From a virus, in IMG/VR virus record IMGVR_UViG_3300003873_000010, positions 1-54,966 of that record: 54,966 nt of DNA. The stretch is one strand, 5' to 3'. Both the position numbers and the translations under genes were made by a program. Each line of letters opens with the position of its first letter. Positions within the stretch are counted from its first letter, which is position 1. Positions 1 through 41,691 of the stretch are shown piece after piece. The notes beneath the pieces are model-generated. The model was not told the DNA's origin. It searched no databases and saw only the letters and a list, made by a program, of their open reading frames with translations.

Positions 1-938
1 CCTTCTGAGGCTTCAATCATACGTCCAGATATCATCGATGCGCAGGCGTACTTCACCGCTACACCCTCTGGCAGCTCAGTAGACCTGCCGGCCTCTATGT
101 CGTCTATGGACGGCAACCCTGCAGCTACCTCCATGTATGATAATAAGTCTACGGCCGCCGCACGGCCAACCGTAGCAAGTGCTAAGGCGTAGCACTCGTC
201 TGCGTCTAGGGCGTCTGCCCCCAAAGATGCAATGGTCTTGCCTAGCGCATCCCAGCTCCGAGGCGTTGGGAATGCGAACATGTCTGCGTCGGTGGCCGCA
301 ACCTCCGACGCATGAAAGTGTTCAGGCTTGTATGCCAAAAACCCCGCCAATAGGGTTTTCACATTTCTCGGCCACGGAGCAATAGGCAGGTATTGCTCGA
401 GCCATGCGTCTGGCGACGCGAAGACCTCTACGTGTGCAAACCGATTACGCAGTGGGGTTGCCATTTGTTGTGTGAGTGCAGCGTCCTGCCTGCGGTTCGT
501 CGCCGCTAGTATGTGTACTGTCTCCGGCAGCTGTTTATCAGCTACACGGCGGTTTTGCACAAGCTCGAATAGCGGGGGTTGTTGTGCTGGGCTTGCCTGC
601 CCTAGCTCATCTACGAATAGTAGAGCGAGACGCTCACCCTTCATATATGGGCCGTTATGGTCTAAAAGGTCGGAAAACGGCGATGCCGGCAGTACGCGCG
701 TCTCGCCAGCGGCAAGGTCAGGCACTGGCAACCCCGACATGGCAATCGGGTCTTTGTGACTCGGCAAGAAGGTTATCAAATCGCAAGGTAGCCCTAGCTG
801 AGCTGATAGCAGCGAGGCGACTTGAGGCGCGACGAGCTGTGTTTTTCCTATCCCCGGCGCACCATGTACAAGTACAGGTGACCCGCTCAAAAGGGTGTGG
901 ATTGTTTTTGATGCACTTCGTATCTCTAGTTTAAGCAT
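1..938 (-). CDS. MoxR-like AAA+ ATPase, 3' end outside the window
   Basis: An open frame of 312 codons runs from an ATG at 938 to the window edge without a stop, so the C-terminus is missing. The translation has a P-loop GAPGIGKT (residues 26-33), a Walker B segment ending in FVDE (D110, E111), a sensor-1 type AATN (N148) and an arginine-finger-like PLRNRF near residue 162. These are the features of MoxR/AAA_5 family ATPases, which remodel partner proteins and often work with a von Willebrand A-domain protein encoded next door; a partner would lie downstream, outside the window. The start is fixed by an AGGAG on the minus strand about 8 nt upstream. The preceding 33-aa gene ends inside that ribosome binding site, so translation is probably coupled. 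Family is confident; the role in the phage is unknown. Confidence 0.8.
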   Translation of the reverse strand, partial: MLKLEIRSASKTIHTLLSGSPVLVHGAPGIGKTQLVAPQVASLLSAQLGLPCDLITFLPSHKDPIAMSGLPVPDLAAGETRVLPASPFSDLLDHNGPYMKGERLALLFVDELGQASPAQQPPLFELVQNRRVADKQLPETVHILAATNRRQDAALTQQMATPLRNRFAHVEVFASPDAWLEQYLPIAPWPRNVKTLLAGFLAYKPEHFHASEVAATDADMFAFPTPRSWDALGKTIASLGADALDADECYALALATVGRAAAVDLLSYMEVAAGLPSIDDIEAGRSTELPEGVAVKYACASMISGRMIEASE

Positions 939-1049: not shown

Positions 1050-1231
1050 GGCAGACTCCTAGGTTAGAATAAAAAGGCAGACCCTGTTTCGCTAAGGCCT
1101 GCAACGGAAACGCGGTGGAAAACCGCAGGTTAAAAATAAAGGCGTGCAAACAGGCAGATATACGTCCATTTGCACTAAAAATCGATACTGCACAGAAAAT
1201 TTAGATGCACAGCGTTATTCCGTGCAGTGTT

Positions 1232-1346
1232 CTGTGCACTATAAGTGCTTGAAATCGTTGAGGAAACGCGTTATTCCCTCAAAAAACACAACTTCATTTG
1301 CCCACTTAACTGTGCACTATAAGTGCTTGAAATCATTGAGGAAACG
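1232..1346. repeat. 37-bp direct repeat, two copies (1232-1268, 1310-1346)
   Basis: The two 37-base copies start CTGTGCACTATAAGTGCTTG and end GAGGAAACG and differ at a single base (cgttg versus cattg). Each carries one copy of the iteron-like core at its left end. A partial third copy, CTGTGCACTATAAAGCGTTG, is at 1523. A related reverse-oriented fragment, ACTTATAGCGCAC, lies near 1639. Confidence 0.85.
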
Positions 1347-1468
1347 TCGATGCTGCACAGAATTGGGTGATTTTTGGAGAGAGAGTCTATGTAACAATAT
1401 TTATGTACACCCGATTTCGCAGAGAAAAAAGAAAAAGCGAAAAAAAATATGGAGCTCTCTCATTCTCT

Positions 1469-1512
1469 CTCTATATATATATATTTCTTTATTTAATAAT
1501 ATATATATAGAG
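1469..1512. repeat. AT-rich inverted repeat, 14-bp arms
   Basis: CTCTATATATATAT (1469-1482) is perfectly complementary to 1499-1512 around a 16-base AT-only loop. The plus strand then reads GGGATTTTTT. It could be the DNA-unwinding part of an origin, or a weak hairpin terminator on the plus strand. Confidence 0.75.
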
Positions 1513-1704
1513 GGATTTTTTCTGTGCACTATAAAGCGTTGATTTTAAAGGAGTTTCAAATTTTGAAAAAAAAAACGTTCCTGCACGTGAGTAACAAAAA
1601 TTCTGTGCAGCAAAAACAATTTCCTCTGCAAAAACAACGACTTATAGCGCACAACGCTTTGTGCAGTGTCGATTGCTCTGTGCAGTATCGCCATTTCTCT
1701 AAGC

Positions 1705-1789
1705 AAATCAACGACTTACGGCCGAAAGCTCGACGAAATCAAAACGCAAAAAAGATAAATCCCAAAGAAAATCAACAACTTACGGCCGA
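1705..1789. repeat. 21-bp direct repeat, two copies (1705-1725, 1769-1789)
   Basis: AAATCAAC-R-ACTTACGGCCGA occurs twice with one mismatch, 64 bases apart. A shorter related piece, AACAACGACTTA, is near 1633. This second repeat family lies inside the candidate origin region and is distinct from the CTGTGCA motif. Confidence 0.75.
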
Positions 1790-1901
1790 TACCTCTCTGT
1801 GCAGTAAGTCGCACAAACACTGTGCAGGCACTTTTACCCATAGATAATTTTTATGGAAAACGCCTAAACCATAAAAAATTTTTATTGGACATTCGTTTTC
1901 A

Positions 1902-1978
1902 TTTCTGATAAGCTATACGCACCTAGCGTGCTAGGAGCAAGACTGCTCCGATGCGCTAGGTACTTAGCTTATCAGAAA
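1902..1978. repeat. Large imperfect stem-loop (14 + 8 + 6 bp arms)
   Basis: Three nested complementary pairs share nearly one axis: 1902-1915 with 1965-1978 (14 bp, TTTCTGATAAGCTA), 1921-1928 with 1954-1961 (8 bp, ACCTAGCG), and 1934-1939 with 1944-1949 (6 bp, GGAGCA), closing on an AGAC loop. No gene covers it. It could form a cruciform in DNA or a folded RNA from either strand. It does not have tRNA features. Confidence 0.8.
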
Positions 1979-3293: not shown

Positions 3294-3321
3294 ATTATAT
3301 AACATACATTAACCTTGTCAA
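3294..3321 (-). promoter_or_regulatory. Consensus sigma70 promoter, minus strand
   Basis: On the minus strand TTGACA (3316-3321) and TATAAT (3294-3299) are separated by 16 bases, both hexamers matching the consensus exactly. Transcription should start near 3287 and run into the 215-aa gene at 3208, leaving a leader of about 80 bases. Confidence 0.8.
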
Positions 3322-3354: not shown

Positions 3355-3506
3355 CATCTATGTGTCTATGTATCTATGTATCTATGTATCTATGTATCTG
3401 TGTATCTGTGTATCTGTGTATCTATGTATCTGTGTATCTGTGTATCTGTGTATCTGTGTATCTGTGTATCTGTGTATCTGTGTATCTATGTATCTATGTA
3501 TCTATG
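3355..3506. repeat. Tandem octamer array TATCTATG/TATCTGTG, about 19 units
   Basis: Nineteen consecutive 8-base units, nearly all TATCTATG or TATCTGTG, with blocks of the A and G variants interspersed. Open frames across it encode Tyr/Cys/Val/Ser low-complexity peptide and have no ribosome binding site. This is a different octamer from the array at 2306, with the same unit length. Confidence 0.9.
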
Positions 3507-3519
3507 TATCTGGATATGC

Positions 3520-3559: not shown

Positions 3560-3641
3560 TCTCTATACGTATCTACGTTTACCCAACAGCCAAATTTCAA
3601 AAAAACAAAGACCCTACAAAAACTAAGGTTTCCCCCCGGCC

Positions 3642-3673
3642 AACCAAGCAACCAAGCAACCAAGCAACCAAGC
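3642..3673. repeat. Tandem octamer AACCAAGC, four units
   Basis: Four perfect copies, followed by a decayed AACCACAA. This is a third octamer array in the same 1.4 kb, 14 bases upstream of the promoter of the small terminase gene. Confidence 0.85.
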
Positions 3674-3686
3674 AACCACAAACCCC

Positions 3687-3715: not shown

Positions 3716-4225
3716 ATGCGTATGAATTATCCATTTCCCCCCAAAATGCTCGTTGCCATAGCCGCCGGGCTCGAACCACCCGTAGACATAGCGGTCAACC
3801 ACGGGTACACCCCCGAGTCGTACGCGGCCGTGGCGAAAACTAGGGCTTTTCAGCAAGCCCTAGCTGCGGTTGCGCGCAAGATGGAGTCCGAGGGGATTAC
3901 ACCAGACATATTAGAGCTGGCCACACTGCAGGAGATGACGACACGTGTCACTCGGCAGCTATTTACGTCCCTCACTTCGGAGGAGTTAGAGCCGAAGGAA
4001 CGGGTACAGATTGCAAATCTACTATTCAACCGTGAAGATACTCTTACTAAGCGCACTCAGCAACGCGACTCGGAGCACGTTTCGGGGGGCGAGGACGCAT
4101 TTGTCATAAATATCACCCTGCCGTCTTCTGGCACTGCAACTGTTAGTGTTGGAGCCGCGGCAAAGAAAGAACCTATTGATGTAACCCCTGTAGAACCGGA
4201 GGCGATAGAGTATGGCGACGATTAA
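3716..4225 (+). CDS. Small terminase subunit (putative)
   Basis: 169 residues from ATG 3716, or 167 from the in-frame ATG at 3722; neither has a clear ribosome binding site. The frame remains open far upstream, but that part is only octamer repeat. The N-terminal half is helical with a DNA-binding-like segment (IAVNHGYTPESYAAVAKTRA), the middle is a helical region (SEELEPKERVQIANLLFN) and the C-terminus is acidic and Pro-rich. This layout, and a 14-base overlap with the large terminase gene, fit the small subunit, which recognises the packaging site and loads the motor. The assignment rests mainly on position, size and layout; the sequence itself is divergent. Confidence 0.65.
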   Translation: MRMNYPFPPKMLVAIAAGLEPPVDIAVNHGYTPESYAAVAKTRAFQQALAAVARKMESEGITPDILELATLQEMTTRVTRQLFTSLTSEELEPKERVQIANLLFNREDTLTKRTQQRDSEHVSGGEDAFVINITLPSSGTATVSVGAAAKKEPIDVTPVEPEAIEYGDD

Positions 4226-5657
4226 CTACGCCCCGCCTCGTTCCCTAGAGGCATACTTTAGTAGTGAGAAGTTCATATCCCTTGCGATGGGTCCTATTGG
4301 GTCGACCAAAACTACCGCATCCCTATTGAAGATTGCATATCATGCGGCACAAATCGCCCCTTGCGAGGATGGCGTGCGTCGTTCTCGGTGCGTTGTGGTT
4401 CGTAACACGCGTGAGCAGCTGCGCGATACAACTATTCCTGACTTCTTATCGTGGTATCCCGATGGCGTAGCGGGCGAGTATGCCAAAACAACAATGACAT
4501 TTAAGTTGCAGTTCGGCGATGTCGAGTGCGATGTCCTGTTCAGAAGCCTCGATGAGGCGAAAGACGTGCGTAAGTTATTATCTTTGCAGCTGTCTTTCGC
4601 GGCTATTGATGAGTTTCGTGAGCTTCACCCCGATGTGTTCCAGCAGTTGCAGGGGCGGTTGGGGCGTTTTCCTGACAAGCGTATGGTTGAGCCAGACCCA
4701 GAGCGCGGGTTCCCCGGTGGGTGCGTGTATGAGGACGGGACGGATGCGAGACGTTTGTGGGGGGCGTCGAACCCGCCAGATATGGGGACCTTTTGGGAGG
4801 ACTACATAACCCGAGCCCGTGAGGGGGAGTTTAAGAACACACATATAACTGTACAGCCCTCGGCTTTTTCTGAGACCGCAGACTGGCTGCAGTTTCTACC
4901 AGATGATTACTATGATGTACTCGTCGAGGGTAAGCCCGATGAGTGGGTGGACGTGTATGTAAAGTCCCAATTTGGGAAATCACTTGCGGGGCGCCCTGTT
5001 TTCAGCGGGTTCGACACAGATTTTCATGTTGCAGAACACACACTCAAGCCGTTCCCCACCTCGTCTAGTCCGCTCATATTGGGGATGGACTTCGGGTTGA
5101 CCCCTGCGTGTACCATATCGCAGGTTGACCCTCGAGGGAGGATGCTGACCTATGCGTCTCTCACGAGCGAGGGCATGGGGATTGTTAGGTTTATTGATGA
5201 GATGCTCCGTCCGCTGTTGATAAATCGTTTTGCTGGGTTGCGTACGTTAGTGGTTGGTGACCCTGCTGGGTCTCAGCGAGCTCAGACGGATGAGAAAAGT
5301 GTGTTTGATATTTTACGGATGCGAGGGTTCGATGTAATCCCTGCACCGACCAACTCGATAGCTTCGCGACTCGCGGCCGTCGAGTCTTTGTTAGCGCGTC
5401 AGGTGGACGGAAAACCTGCGCATCTTATAGACCCGGGCGCGACGGGGTTGATTGACGCTCTGCGTGGCGGGTATCGATACAGAAAGCGTAAGAATGGAGA
5501 TTATGATGACAAGCCAGAGAAAAATGAGTATTCCCACGTGGCCGATGCCCACCAGTATGCCTGCCTCTACATTGCAGGAGACCAAGTCGGAGCAGGGCCC
5601 CGAGTCAAATCAAAGCGACGAAGCGTTGGCACGGCTAGTGTCACCGCTTGGGTGTGA
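4212..5657 (+). CDS. terL: Large terminase subunit (ATPase and nuclease)
   Basis: 481 residues. It packages DNA into the prohead by ATP hydrolysis and cuts the concatemer. The N-terminal ATPase has a Walker A-like GPIGSTKT (residues 27-34, K33), Walker B with AAIDEF (D133, E134) and a coupling motif GASNPPD near 184-190. The C-terminal RNase H-like nuclease shows GMDFGLTPAC (D293), VVGDPAG (D350) and a late acidic DAHQY (D445). Length is normal for the family. GGAGG at 4198-4202 supports the ATG at 4212, which overlaps the upstream gene. A different-frame gene overlaps the 3' end. Confidence 0.92.
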   Translation: MATINYAPPRSLEAYFSSEKFISLAMGPIGSTKTTASLLKIAYHAAQIAPCEDGVRRSRCVVVRNTREQLRDTTIPDFLSWYPDGVAGEYAKTTMTFKLQFGDVECDVLFRSLDEAKDVRKLLSLQLSFAAIDEFRELHPDVFQQLQGRLGRFPDKRMVEPDPERGFPGGCVYEDGTDARRLWGASNPPDMGTFWEDYITRAREGEFKNTHITVQPSAFSETADWLQFLPDDYYDVLVEGKPDEWVDVYVKSQFGKSLAGRPVFSGFDTDFHVAEHTLKPFPTSSSPLILGMDFGLTPACTISQVDPRGRMLTYASLTSEGMGIVRFIDEMLRPLLINRFAGLRTLVVGDPAGSQRAQTDEKSVFDILRMRGFDVIPAPTNSIASRLAAVESLLARQVDGKPAHLIDPGATGLIDALRGGYRYRKRKNGDYDDKPEKNEYSHVADAHQYACLYIAGDQVGAGPRVKSKRRSVGTASVTAWV

Positions 5658-32206: not shown

Positions 32207-35200
32207 ATGCCTAAGCAAGCCATCCCACAAGTAGACCAAAACACCTCCGCCCTCGGCGATTTAATTACCAGTGGACAAATAGGACTTGAAAGTGTACCGG
32301 GGGCCTTAACAGGTTTACTGGATACATATGCAGGGCTATTTGGGGAGAACCACCCGTACGGACGGGCCGCGGATGCGCTTGGGCGTGCCACAGGCTTTCA
32401 ACCCCACGAGTGGATTAAGCAGAACCAAGCCGAATACACCCCCGAATACCAGCAGGTGCAGCAAGATTTCCACAACGCCGACGGTTTTCTACCCTCTGCC
32501 CTTACATTGCTTGAACACCCCACATTAGCACTTAACACAGCGGTGCAATCCGTTCCGTCGATGATGGCGGGGGGGTTGGCAGGTAGAGCTCTTCGCGCTG
32601 TAGCCCCGGGGATGGAAGCAACCACCGCCGCAGGTGCAGGTGAGGGTGTCGTGATGGCGGGGTCGCAGATGGACAGTCTGCAACACACAGGACTCAACCC
32701 CTTTACGGACGCGCTCGCATCGGTCGCGACTGGGGCGCTAGGTGGTCTAATTGGAGCCAAGGGCGCGAAGACGGCCGAGGCCCACGGGGCGCGGGATATA
32801 AACGTGATGCTCTCAGGGGGGAGTGGTATGAAGGGTGCGAGTATCCGGCAGGGTATCGCACACGAAGCCGCGCAAGAAGCCTTACAGAGCACGGGTGAAA
32901 CTGTGCTCGGTAACGTAGCTCAAGGCATTGACCCGTTTAACCAGCTCGCGCAGAATGTGGTGCTGGGTGCAGCTGCGGGGGGTATGATGGGTGGTGGTGC
33001 GAACGCATACGCAAAACTCCGCAACCACCAAGCGGCCCAAGCGAACGAGCCTCCAATGGGGGTGCCCATACTGCACCCTGAGACCGGGGCTATTACAGAC
33101 TCCAACACAGGCGCAGTACTGATGCCCAAGGAAGAAGTGGCGCAATACGTCACTCCAGAGGACGCCGCGCTAACTACTCCAGAGGGCATACCTGCTACTC
33201 CAGAGGGCATACCTGCTACTCCAGATGGCATACCTGCTACTCCAGATGGCATACCTGCTACTCCAGATGGCATACCTGCTACTCCTGCTACTCCAGATGG
33301 CATACCTGCTACTCCTGCACCGCAAGTGGAACCTACAATTACTGTCCCTGCGGACACCAAGCCCCCCCGCACCTTAATCCCGAACGAAGCCGTGCATGAA
33401 AAAATAGCAAAGGCTCTGACGCGTCGCAATGTAGTAAGTGTCGACGCTGCAGATGTACACCACGCGGACCTCGGGAGCGTGCATATAATCGGGGACCACT
33501 TTGCGAAAGTAACAAACGTATCTGATAAAGGGAAAGTACTTCTAGCACGCACGAAGCCAGAGGACGTTATTAATGGCATAATAAAATCTCTTAACACGGA
33601 GGGCAATGCATCGCCTTTCGTCCCCAACCCCAAAGACTCCCACACCCCCGATACAGGCGCCCCGCACCTTGCGATGTCACCGGCGCAGTTCGTGCAGGCA
33701 GTCGCACGCACCACCAGTACACGCAAGGTGAAGAACATTATCCAGCCCACAGTAGAGGCGAAAACGCCCGAAGCCGCCGCCATACACCAAGCCGTGTATG
33801 TGGCTAGCAATGTTAGTAAGCACAACCTGCCATCGAACGTAACAGATGTAGCGGCCAAATTCGCTGATAGCGCAGTCACGAACAAAGACCCCGCGGCGTC
33901 TTTGGCCCTAAGAGCTATGACGGTAGGAGTAGAACACGTGCATAGAAGCGCCCAGTCTCCTGTAGTCCGCGTGAAACCCACCCCAGAGGCATATGGAAAG
34001 GTGGTGTCCGCCATCGGGACTGAACTCACAAGCGATTTGACCCCTGCAATTGCCGGGCACTCTATGGCTTCGGACTTCTTCGGGGTAGGTACACATAACG
34101 CGTCGGTCCCAGACCCAATACTCCCAAGCGCGGTACCCGTTGCAGTTGATAACCTGCACGCGCAGGGGCACTCTAACGCAGCTAAGGTTGTCAGCGATGC
34201 ATATCTAAGCACAGACACCCCCATCGTTACGCAATCTGACTTGACGGCTGCAGTTGTGGCCAACGATAGCCTCTCTACTGATGAGAAAAGTGCAGCGGTG
34301 TATGCACTGATGGATGCGACCTTGTCGGGCAGTGTGGACACCACCTCGTCAGCGGAGCGTTTACAAGAGAAAAGCAGTGTGCCCCCTCCAGAGTATGTGC
34401 CCTACGCGCCTAGCGTCAAACAACCAAAGGGTAAGAGCAAGCCAGTCTCCACCCTCGAAGCCCACCTACCCCCTGAGGCCTTAGACTCTCTGAGCAAACT
34501 AGGCTCTCATGTAGTAAACACTGCGGACTCGTTACTGCGCAGAACACAACCGCAGACGGAGAAGCCCGCAGGGCAGACGGCCACGAGGGACCTCGTACGT
34601 GATGTCAAAGGCGACCCCCTCTTAAAGAACACGATAGATTACATCTCGAAACGCCAAGGGTCCGGAGACCACACCCTGCCTACCGCCCTCATAGATGCTA
34701 GAACGCCGGCCACGAAGGATGCAGGGATAGCGTCGGTGCACGGCCTAGTAACCAGTGCGCTGACCAAAGCGGGGGTAAACCCCGTGATAACTTCGCAAAT
34801 AGCGGACCGTCTAGTCCACGGCAAACTTGCAGGCTACTTGAAGAGCGGGGATGGGGCACAAGGGTTCACGGCCCCTCTGAAGCACATGATGGCTAACATC
34901 GCAACTGACGCCGCCACTACAGTAGGCGAACAAGACAGCAGTGTCGATGTGGCCTCAGAACTGAATAAGATAAAGGACGTACACCTGCCAAACGTTGTGT
35001 CCGTGCTAAACCCAGACGACCCCACTCTGAAGTCCACCGTGTACCACGAGCTGATGCACTCGGGCATGTCCCCAGCAGGGCGTAAAGCTGCGTTACAGTA
35101 TATGCACCGAGCCGCGAAATCAACGAACCCAGAGATACGCAAGTTGTTCGCCAATGCGGTTACCCGTGCATCAATGTCCGGCACAGGTGCGCCAGTTTCC

Positions 35201-38709: not shown

Positions 38710-41691
38710 CTACATAGATGCGGAGGCCGTGTCAAACTCCTCAAGCTCTAATCCCTGCTCAATCAACACTGTAGCGTCGATACCAACACATCGCGCCCTG
38801 CCTCCTTGCAGGTGTGTGTGTGCCGATAGGGTTACTTGCTCAGACCTGTGCACCGTAGTAACCTCTGCTATGGTATCGAACAGGTCCTCTACGCCAAGTC
38901 TTCGCTGTGCGCACCAGTGTTTTATATACTTGTTAGATATGTATATCCACCCATCGCGCGCGCTCTTCTGGTCTGAGGCCGTCGTGGGTAACGACATGCG
39001 GGCCTCCAAGATATTAACAGGTTCCGTAATGACGGGGACTCGACTGCGCCCTGTTCCGTATCCATTAGTTACCAGCAGTCTGCGTTCCCCTTGTAAGTCA
39101 CGCACCAACTCATCTAGTAATCCGTGCCCGCTTCGAGCGTCGACGGAGTTATCGCGCACCACGGCAACAAGCGTCTCAATATGCGCCGCTGCCCACGCGG
39201 TTACAGCTTTCATGTCAAAAGCTATGAACCCTAGTGAGTGCAGGAACAACCCTGCGGCGATGGTGCACACTGCGTGATATCTGTAGAAGCGGTACTTAGG
39301 TTGGTTGAGAGAGGGGGCACGGCGCACTAGTGCCTTCTCTACCTGCGAGAGGGTCTCATATACCCGCTTCGTGTCCTTTAAGAGTTCTCTGCCAAACGCA
39401 AGGCCTACAACCCCACGAGACTTCAGGGCTTTATCCATGTGCATATCCACCTGAACAGGGTCTAGTTTTGGCACGCCGTATTTCGAGGGGTCTATCTCAA
39501 ACACGCGCACTTGGTTTGCTTCTGTGTCAACCCTCATCGCGGCTAATTTTGTAATTAGGTGCTCGTTCGCTGTGATGTACACACTGCTGTTCCAGCTCTC
39601 TACAGGACGTAACGTCCCATCGGAGGCCAAACGCTGTCTGTCGCGCCCATTAGATACGTTATACAGCAAGTCTGACAACTCGTTGGGGTCGATGTCTGTA
39701 AGCTCGTCGAGCAGTACGGGGAAGTTACCCATAGCAGAAATGGTACTCACTCTGGCCATGCGTGTCGCACCTGCGCTACTAGACAAGAACATCTCACGCC
39801 AGTCCCCGAACGCCGTTAGTGCTAGCTTGGCCACTGTAGTTTTACCAATCCCTGACTCTTGCGAAGTGATGGCACAGGGGACCCCTGCGTAGGCATCTCC
39901 ACTGATGAATGGACCGAGCAAAGACCCGAACCCACTTAGGAGGGCATACTGCATACTTGCGGAGTTAGGCCGGTTATATAAGTACTCAACCGCATCAACC
40001 CATCCGTCACCCCTACCGTCGCCTATCACAAATGCCGGAGCTTTTGAGACTGCGTTCCCCGCTAATGATGCGTGGTGCATTCCGCTAGTATCTACGAGGG
40101 TGTTTCCAAAAACAATCCCGTCTTTAGCAGGTGTCCAACCGAACTGTCGGTATGTTCTGGTGACCTGCACATCTTTGACCAACCCTGTGCAGTAGTCGAT
40201 GGCGTACTGCGTAATGGCCGTACGTATTTTAGCTGTTGCTTTCATATTATAAATCTCCACTTTAGCGAGGCACTCTATCAAAGAGTTCGTCGTCGCGATT
40301 GACTTTGCAGGTATTTCAAACTCTTCAACCGTAGTGCCTTTTATAGCGCGGCACCGATATGAGAATTCACCGGCTTCGTCGCGAACACGTGCGTAAGGGT
40401 ACCACGCGAATGTACTTATCTGCACTACCTCTGTCCCGGTGTCCGTAGCGACTATCCTACCAATCCCCCCATTCTCATATACGTACCCGGGAGGCAGTGA
40501 GAATGTCTCTGTATGCGCGTCCGCTATTGTAGCATCTGCGATTAGGAACCTGTCTACTCCAACCGATACCTCAGTTATAGCAGGACTTTCCTCGGGTGCA
40601 GTCTGCGGCTCGCTTGGGACCACAACATCTCGCACGTTTCCCAGATGTAGGGGCGTAGCGCAGGTGCCTCGATGCTTGCACGCGGCGCACTTATCAGGCT
40701 CATAGTCTGATAGATACGAGCAGGTCGTAGGCCCTGCGCTGTATGTATCGTACTTCTCTTGCGTCTCTGCGTAGGAGTACCCTGCGTGTCCGTTACTCCA
40801 GTCATGTAGGACCGATGCGCCATCAACGCAGTGCTTCAAGATGCCTATACACCCGCGCCATACAGGCTCTAACACGTTACCTCGTGTGTCTCGAACCTCT
40901 CCTATAATCGCGCATTCATTTGCAACGATGGATGCGTAGGTCGGAGGCTGAGTACCCAGCTTGTCAAGCCCTGTTGGAAAGTCAGTAGGCGTCACGCAGG
41001 ATGTTGGGGCGGACGGACTATATTCCACTCCCGGTACTGCATCTAGTAGGCGCTCTAAATCCGCAGGGTTATATTCCCCCGCGTCAATCAGAACCCGTAC
41101 GGGTTGCGCGGGGGTGTACTTATGGTTCAGCCCCCCTACGGGGCGAAGCACCGAGGCCTCATCAAGTGTGCGTGTGGGGTCTGCTCTGAGCCCGCACACT
41201 TGGGTGGCCGCTTTCAAACGACCTGCGATAGGTCTCCAGTCTTGCACGTCAATGGGCGCTACGAACGGCCAGTAGACATGCAGGCCCCCGCCTGAAGATG
41301 TAACTAGAGGGGTAGGCAGCTTAGTAACTTTGAGAAACTCTGCGAGGGCGACCAGCGCCTCACGCTGTGTACCATACCCCTTGGTATCGCCCACATCTAA
41401 GTCGAGCCACAAGGCTTTTAATTGCTTGACTTGTTTCTTGGTGCGTCTGCTATATTTAGGGCGACCTGCGGTATCTAATATGGGGGCGCCTGATGCGTCC
41501 ACCTTTGGTATGGGGTCGCTATATGATGCTAACGCCATAAAGGCGTTCGAGGTCGTCGTATATCTCCGCAGTATCGCTGCCAATGCGGCGATACTCTCTG
41601 CTTTGTAATGTAACATGGACCCGTTTTGTTTCTGTATGACTGCGTACAGATTGGGGGTGTCGGGTATCACCAACTTCAAAAAATTTATCAT
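38710..41691 (-). CDS. Primase-polymerase/helicase fusion
   Basis: 993 residues, likely initiating and unwinding at the fork. The N-terminal archaeo-eukaryotic primase region has WLDLDVGD (D97, D99), SGGGLHVYW (133-141) and a late acidic segment DPTRTLDEASVLRPVGGLNH (D171). Cysteines C324, C335, C338 and C344 form a probable zinc-binding cluster between the domains. The C-terminal ATPase has Walker A SQESGIGKTT (610-619, K617), VLLDELTDID and SSVYITANEHL-type helicase signatures, as in phage DUF927-like primase-helicases. It is the last gene of the minus-strand operon before the terminator. Confidence 0.85.
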   Translation of the reverse strand: MINFLKLVIPDTPNLYAVIQKQNGSMLHYKAESIAALAAILRRYTTTSNAFMALASYSDPIPKVDASGAPILDTAGRPKYSRRTKKQVKQLKALWLDLDVGDTKGYGTQREALVALAEFLKVTKLPTPLVTSSGGGLHVYWPFVAPIDVQDWRPIAGRLKAATQVCGLRADPTRTLDEASVLRPVGGLNHKYTPAQPVRVLIDAGEYNPADLERLLDAVPGVEYSPSAPTSCVTPTDFPTGLDKLGTQPPTYASIVANECAIIGEVRDTRGNVLEPVWRGCIGILKHCVDGASVLHDWSNGHAGYSYAETQEKYDTYSAGPTTCSYLSDYEPDKCAACKHRGTCATPLHLGNVRDVVVPSEPQTAPEESPAITEVSVGVDRFLIADATIADAHTETFSLPPGYVYENGGIGRIVATDTGTEVVQISTFAWYPYARVRDEAGEFSYRCRAIKGTTVEEFEIPAKSIATTNSLIECLAKVEIYNMKATAKIRTAITQYAIDYCTGLVKDVQVTRTYRQFGWTPAKDGIVFGNTLVDTSGMHHASLAGNAVSKAPAFVIGDGRGDGWVDAVEYLYNRPNSASMQYALLSGFGSLLGPFISGDAYAGVPCAITSQESGIGKTTVAKLALTAFGDWREMFLSSSAGATRMARVSTISAMGNFPVLLDELTDIDPNELSDLLYNVSNGRDRQRLASDGTLRPVESWNSSVYITANEHLITKLAAMRVDTEANQVRVFEIDPSKYGVPKLDPVQVDMHMDKALKSRGVVGLAFGRELLKDTKRVYETLSQVEKALVRRAPSLNQPKYRFYRYHAVCTIAAGLFLHSLGFIAFDMKAVTAWAAAHIETLVAVVRDNSVDARSGHGLLDELVRDLQGERRLLVTNGYGTGRSRVPVITEPVNILEARMSLPTTASDQKSARDGWIYISNKYIKHWCAQRRLGVEDLFDTIAEVTTVHRSEQVTLSAHTHLQGGRARCVGIDATVLIEQGLELEEFDTASASM

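Follow-up and report, generated by a model that had tools for sequence, protein, structure and literature searches.

A probable replication origin with iterons on both sides of an AT-rich dyad in an autonomous 55-kb phage

The window analyzed here is the whole of IMG/VR virus record IMGVR_UViG_3300003873_000010 (54,966 bp). Between positions 1144 and 1848 it carries a cluster of the heptamer CTGTGCA around an AT-rich inverted repeat, and we consider this region, with a probability of roughly 80% judged from sequence, to be the replication origin of the phage. Iterons, a minimum of DNA stability, recurrence of the arrangement in relatives, and loci retrieved elsewhere with a conserved box combine to make this identification well supported. 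The region is best read as an origin that works like those of phage-inducible chromosomal islands (PICIs), among them the Staphylococcus aureus pathogenicity islands (SaPIs), in which two iteron sets surround a melting spot served by a self-loading helicase; sites of the IHF type are an addition here. An initiator-bound origin had been proposed from the same letters (the original prediction). Comparison with relatives supports that idea, but not the initiators proposed with it.

The heptamer occurs ten times exactly, and 13 times when one mismatch is allowed, in both orientations, much as the 'about a dozen' copies first noticed. Copies of the region simulated with a first-order Markov model (5000) hold 0.12 on average and three at most, and the remaining 54 kb holds six more exact copies, which are scattered. 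No other dispersed 7-mer cluster in two orientations is as significant in this genome, and the center of this one lies 12 bp from the genome's least stable 60-bp window as computed from nearest-neighbour energies. That stability minimum, which coincides with the dyad (Table 1), had gone unreported. Five exact sites lie on each side of the dyad. The left block is of mixed orientation, with three of its five on the minus strand, and the right block reads entirely on the plus strand, so that two sets of iterons surround an AT-rich region as in PICI or SaPI origins. Two direct repeats were also confirmed, one of 37 bp (1232-1268 and 1310-1346, 97%) and one of 21 bp (1177-1197 and 1342-1362, 86%). 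The inverted repeat is real (arms 94% alike), but its description as AT-only is close, not exact: there is one C within 1472-1509, and the arms end in CTCTC/GAGGG.

No direct DNA similarity of the record to known phages was found; its TerL, DNA polymerase and PrimPol proteins lead to Pseudomonas phage Rollin, to Rhizobium phages of the RHph_TM group and to many IMG/VR records. In Rollin, G001, G002, G019, G022 and others there is an AT-rich, mostly non-coding stretch with a two-orientation 7-mer cluster. As in this phage, the early genes lie on one side of these stretches and the late operon on the other. The 7-mers differ from one relative to another (AAAAGGT and TTGCATA, GGGTAAT, CGTATAC, CTTAAAT, GGATACC). 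The expectation that repeats would be conserved in related phages holds for their architecture and place, but the repeat sequences themselves are phage-specific. In 9 of 17 phage records, no more than 303 bp separate the top bidirectional cluster from the least stable 60-mer, and the repeat differs from record to record; the chance of such a coincidence, estimated from region size, is about 1% per record. KPP25, which has a helicase of a different family, displays it as well (TGTTACGA, 8/13). As controls, the same cluster scan ranks the tested origin of EcCICFT073, a Gram-negative PICI, first, just after its primase gene, and recovers the annotated crr repeats of phage P4 as the second cluster.

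What stays fixed where the repeats change is a box, TAAGTNNTTGATTT, that fits the IHF consensus. Three of the four exact matches to this consensus in the whole genome (WATCAANNNNTTR; read on the other strand, TAAnnnnTTGATW; reviewed in PMC10380432) fall in the repeat region, and these too are additions to the original prediction. Such sites are present in the corresponding regions of this phage, Rollin, a Rhizobium phage, G001, G002 and G022. Nine regions together hold nine against 0.48 expected; some of these regions were picked after the motif had been seen. Aligned box sites read TAAGTNNTTGATTTT, which is longer than the IHF consensus, and conservation within the box (TAAGT, TTGATTTT) exceeds that consensus. 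The box may be bound by IHF or by another protein that reads TAAGTNNTTGATTT.

The box alone also points to comparable loci. A blind scan of IMG/VR with it (probe TAAGTNNTTGATTTYNARGG), in which many matches must be due to chance, gave 93 loci of at least 6 kb among the matches listed. Among these 93, the box lies no more than 600 bp from the top cluster in 35 (11.3 expected) and from the least stable 60-mer in 40 (11.9 expected). At L192 and L281, for instance, box and iterons follow immediately after a primase-helicase or Prim-Pol gene, which is the position of PICI origins. The box is not unique to phages with DUF927 proteins: G005 carries it with a RepB-type primase, and a degenerate copy persists in KPP25, which has a DUF5906 protein. 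It is absent from the P4 and EcCICFT073 origin sites. In another phage (L250:4644-5693), a TnpB/OrfB-like gene with a Cas12f1-like TNB domain lies about 1.5 kb from box and iterons.

The candidate initiator is a 993-amino-acid (aa) protein with an N-terminal PrimPol domain followed by a DUF927 helicase (PF06048, E 5e-15). Its SGIGKTT and DELTD motifs supply the Walker A and B elements of a DUF927/MCM-like AAA+ core, and DUF927 is present in 24 of 24 members of its family. A profile of 24 relatives matches the SaPIbov1 replication initiator (8tch, E 2.2e-30) and SCCmec Cch (5dgk, E 3e-25). The same two structures are the top fold matches of an AlphaFold model (mean predicted local distance difference test (pLDDT) 77, predicted template modelling score (pTM) 0.49), with the S-2L PrimPol domain next, and the C-terminus of the model is winged-helix-like by its order of helices and strands. 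SaPI Rep recognises iterons through its C-terminal domain, and Cch is a DUF927 relative of SaPIbov1 Rep (PMC7581432). Rollin, RHph_TM3_14A, G001, G002, G007, G019 and G024 have retained the gene together with the other genes of the replication module. We lean towards this protein as the iteron binder.

Replication might then start as follows. On either side of the AT dyad, hexamers of the 993-aa PrimPol-DUF927 helicase would occupy the CTGTGCA iterons, with the C-terminal domain as the probable point of contact. Either IHF or another protein that recognises the box would bend the DNA between the two blocks, the dyad would melt, and the helicase would load itself there. The fused PrimPol would supply the phage DNA polymerase A with primers in both directions, and forks would leave both ways.

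Known origins resemble this one in part. In PICI origins, an AT-rich region has a set of iterons on either side (PMC7581432; PMC6092414). EcCICFT073 has the same kind of cluster as this phage but lacks the IHF-type box, and the likeness to SaPIs extends to the proposed initiator, a helicase that shares the DUF927 family with SaPIbov1 Rep. However, SaPIs and PICIs are satellites with the origin immediately 3' of the rep or pri-rep gene, whereas this 55-kb phage is autonomous, has PrimPol fused to the DUF927 helicase and carries that gene about 15 kb from the repeats, counted round the circle. With genes for terminase, head closure, structural proteins and a DNA polymerase of its own, the record is no satellite, and because the region is also not beside the initiator gene, we do not class the region as a PICI origin. 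The SCCmec cassettes share the helicase family (Cch, DUF927), and Cch2 requires short repeats of the putative SCCmec origin (PMC7581432). These cassettes are chromosomal, however, the Cch2 origin has three 5-nt iterons, and the primase is a separate protein.

Phage P4, with ori and crr and the alpha primase-helicase, likewise combines short two-orientation repeats with a fused primase-helicase initiator. It differs in having two separated sites with no IHF box at them, and in alpha itself, which we take to belong to another protein family than the 993-aa helicase. The origins of iteron plasmids (RepA/RepE) and of lambda (O) have iterons beside an AT-rich melting region and IHF-consensus sites. 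Origins of this type often carry IHF or DnaA boxes. Their iterons share one orientation and lie on one side, in contrast to the two sides and both strands used here. No Rep- or O-type initiator was recognised among the proteins scanned with PHROGs and Pfam, a set in which unknown proteins remain. A DnaA-dependent origin was rejected: the genome has no exact DnaA box (TTATCCACA) and no cluster of such boxes, and TTWTNCACA has a single match in the first 4.3 kb, at 553.

Several observations weigh against an origin of this kind. The distance between the repeats and the initiator gene departs from the SaPI pattern. Binding of the iterons by the C-terminal domain of the 993-aa protein is proposed by analogy; much of the C-terminal 150 residues is among the less conserved parts of the protein, as would be expected if this domain follows changing iterons. 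Three DUF927 phages (G002, G007 and G024) have their stability minimum away from the top cluster. The closest relative by synteny is G024; its matching gap holds an AT-rich tract and only a weak CACTNAGTG-type cluster, and no IHF-consensus site was found there. Some bases may be missing where the record ends join. Finally, cumulative GC skew, offered in the original prediction as a check, has its minimum at 3814 and its maximum at 32999, as hoped, but the minimum coincides with a change in gene orientation, skew at fourfold sites is weak, and the relatives disagree. Because it is confounded with gene orientation, GC skew adds little and was set aside as proof of an origin.

The region could be an origin whose iterons are bound by some other phage protein (a 215-aa protein, a 105-aa helix-turn-helix protein, a conserved 342-aa protein or an unrecognised one) that recruits the PrimPol-helicase. 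Lambda O, which recruits DnaB, is the model for such a separate binder. Relatives that keep the PrimPol-helicase also keep the 342-aa protein and a 133-aa protein, a weak helix-turn-helix match was found for the 105-aa protein, and a perfect leftward sigma70 promoter (TTGACA-16-TATAAT, 3294-3321) stands ahead of the 215-aa gene. However, a comparison with 15 related records gave no homologues of the 215-aa and 105-aa proteins, which the original prediction had put forward as initiators. The 215-aa protein, which also lacks relatives in IMG/VR and any PHROG or Pfam match, was dropped. Since the 993-aa helicase belongs to a family of self-loading initiators, recruitment by a separate binder is unlikely, though it deserves to be taken seriously.

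Other explanations would do without an origin. Operators of a phage-encoded regulator of transcription, placed where early and late genes diverge, would suit the many palindromic repeats of relatives (G002 AAACGTATACGYTTT, Rollin AAAAGGTAG..CTACCTTTT) and a region that divides leftward from rightward genes, yet promoter-like sites are not enriched between 900 and 4300 (6 versus 6.5 in shuffles), and the one within 1144-1848 is weak. Operators would leave unexplained the genome's stability minimum, the IHF sites, the two-sided layout and the box-found loci directly 3' of primase-helicase genes, and we regard them as improbable. That the small terminase binds here, at a packaging (pac/cos) site, is very improbable: the putative terS and terL do begin 2-2.5 kb to the right, but RHph_TM3_14A and KPP25 have several kb and several genes between the corresponding region and terL, while AT-rich DNA, box and clusters stay together. 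It is barely credible that the clusters are functionless products of low-complexity slippage in non-coding DNA. Tandem arrays of 8 bp are indeed nearby (2305-2400 and 3356-3516), but CTGTGCA sites are dispersed, irregularly spaced and in both orientations, and distant phages whose repeats are different show the same coincidence with the stability minimum.

Many autonomous phages with unrelated self-loading primase-helicases may follow one plan, in which phage-specific iterons, swapped between relatives, surround an AT-rich melting spot accompanied by a fixed TAAGTNNTTGATTTT box. This generalisation is tentative, and we would not yet bet on it. Were it true, the box would be longer than IHF needs and might be read by more than IHF; it would also be a searchable mark of phage origins. 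For uncultured phages, the box offers an easy means of predicting origins. The PICI/SaPI plan and a homologue of the SaPIbov1 initiator in autonomous phages of 55-65 kb would link satellite and phage replication. Among relatives the iterons differ, but the location, the melting spot and, for the most part, the box are retained, which makes co-evolution of initiator and iterons testable in a natural series.

Table 1. Features of the candidate origin and its landmarks
Feature	Position	Strand	Remarks
AAA ATPase gene	3..938	-	Borders the repeat region; runs off the left record end
Left iteron block	1189..1360		CTGTGCA at 1189-, 1206-, 1232+, 1310+, 1354-; CCGTGCA at 1220+; contains the 37-bp repeat
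IHF-consensus near-match	1242..1254	-	One mismatch, in first 37-bp repeat; second copy 1320-1332; read from sequence
AT dyad	1462..1521		Arms 1466-1482/1499-1515; proposed DNA unwinding element
Right iteron block	1522..1826	+	CTGTGCA at 1522, 1603, 1678, 1797, 1820; one mismatch at 1624, 1659
IHF-consensus site	1532..1544	-	AATCAACGCTTTA
IHF-consensus site	1706..1718	+	AATCAACGACTTA; within conserved box 1704-1720
IHF-consensus site	1770..1782	+	AATCAACAACTTA; within conserved box 1768-1784 (exact box match)
Three-part hairpin	1902..1978		Long, just past right iteron block; perfect 14-bp outer arms; z -7.8
Putative small and large terminase genes	3731..5657	+	Right of the region; landmark common to relatives
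PrimPol + DUF927 helicase gene (993 aa)	38710..41691	-	SaPIbov1 Rep/Cch-type; proposed initiator

The repeats lie in AT-rich DNA (0.95-2.56 kb) in which no gene was recognised. Leftward genes occupy 38.7-54.9 kb and continue into the AAA ATPase gene at the record's left end; they encode the PrimPol-helicase, an SNF2 helicase, a VRR nuclease, a RecB-like exonuclease, DNA polymerase A, a deoxynucleoside monophosphate kinase and unknown proteins. The putative terS and terL are the first of the rightward genes. When the record ends (1/54966) are joined, a single frame stays open through the AAA ATPase and on into the gene that follows. A second record, IMGVR_UViG_3300003177_000078, encodes identical TerL and PrimPol proteins; it ends some 670 bp short of terL, which leaves the region outside it. 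The Rollin record, which is labelled partial, has a run of N near its candidate origin (L011:987-1086).

The hairpin just past the right block is present in G002 too and is not general among relatives. Two overlapping perfect hairpins with arms of 24 and 16 bp (2485-2556) directly follow the stop of the 215-aa gene and could form alternative structures. An Rfam scan gave sub-threshold microRNA matches only, and the hairpin at 2485-2533 accounts for most of them. Three 8-bp tandem arrays, each with its own unit, are present: TTCACTTG repeated 12 times (2305-2400), TCTRTGTA about 20 times (3356-3516) and CAACCAAG five times (3641-3680). GATC is absent from the 55-kb genome, where about 154 copies are expected, compared with 231 (238 expected) in Rollin and 150 (196 expected) in the Rhizobium phage. 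CCATGG is likewise absent (7.7 expected). These absences suggest escape from a GATC-cutting host enzyme.
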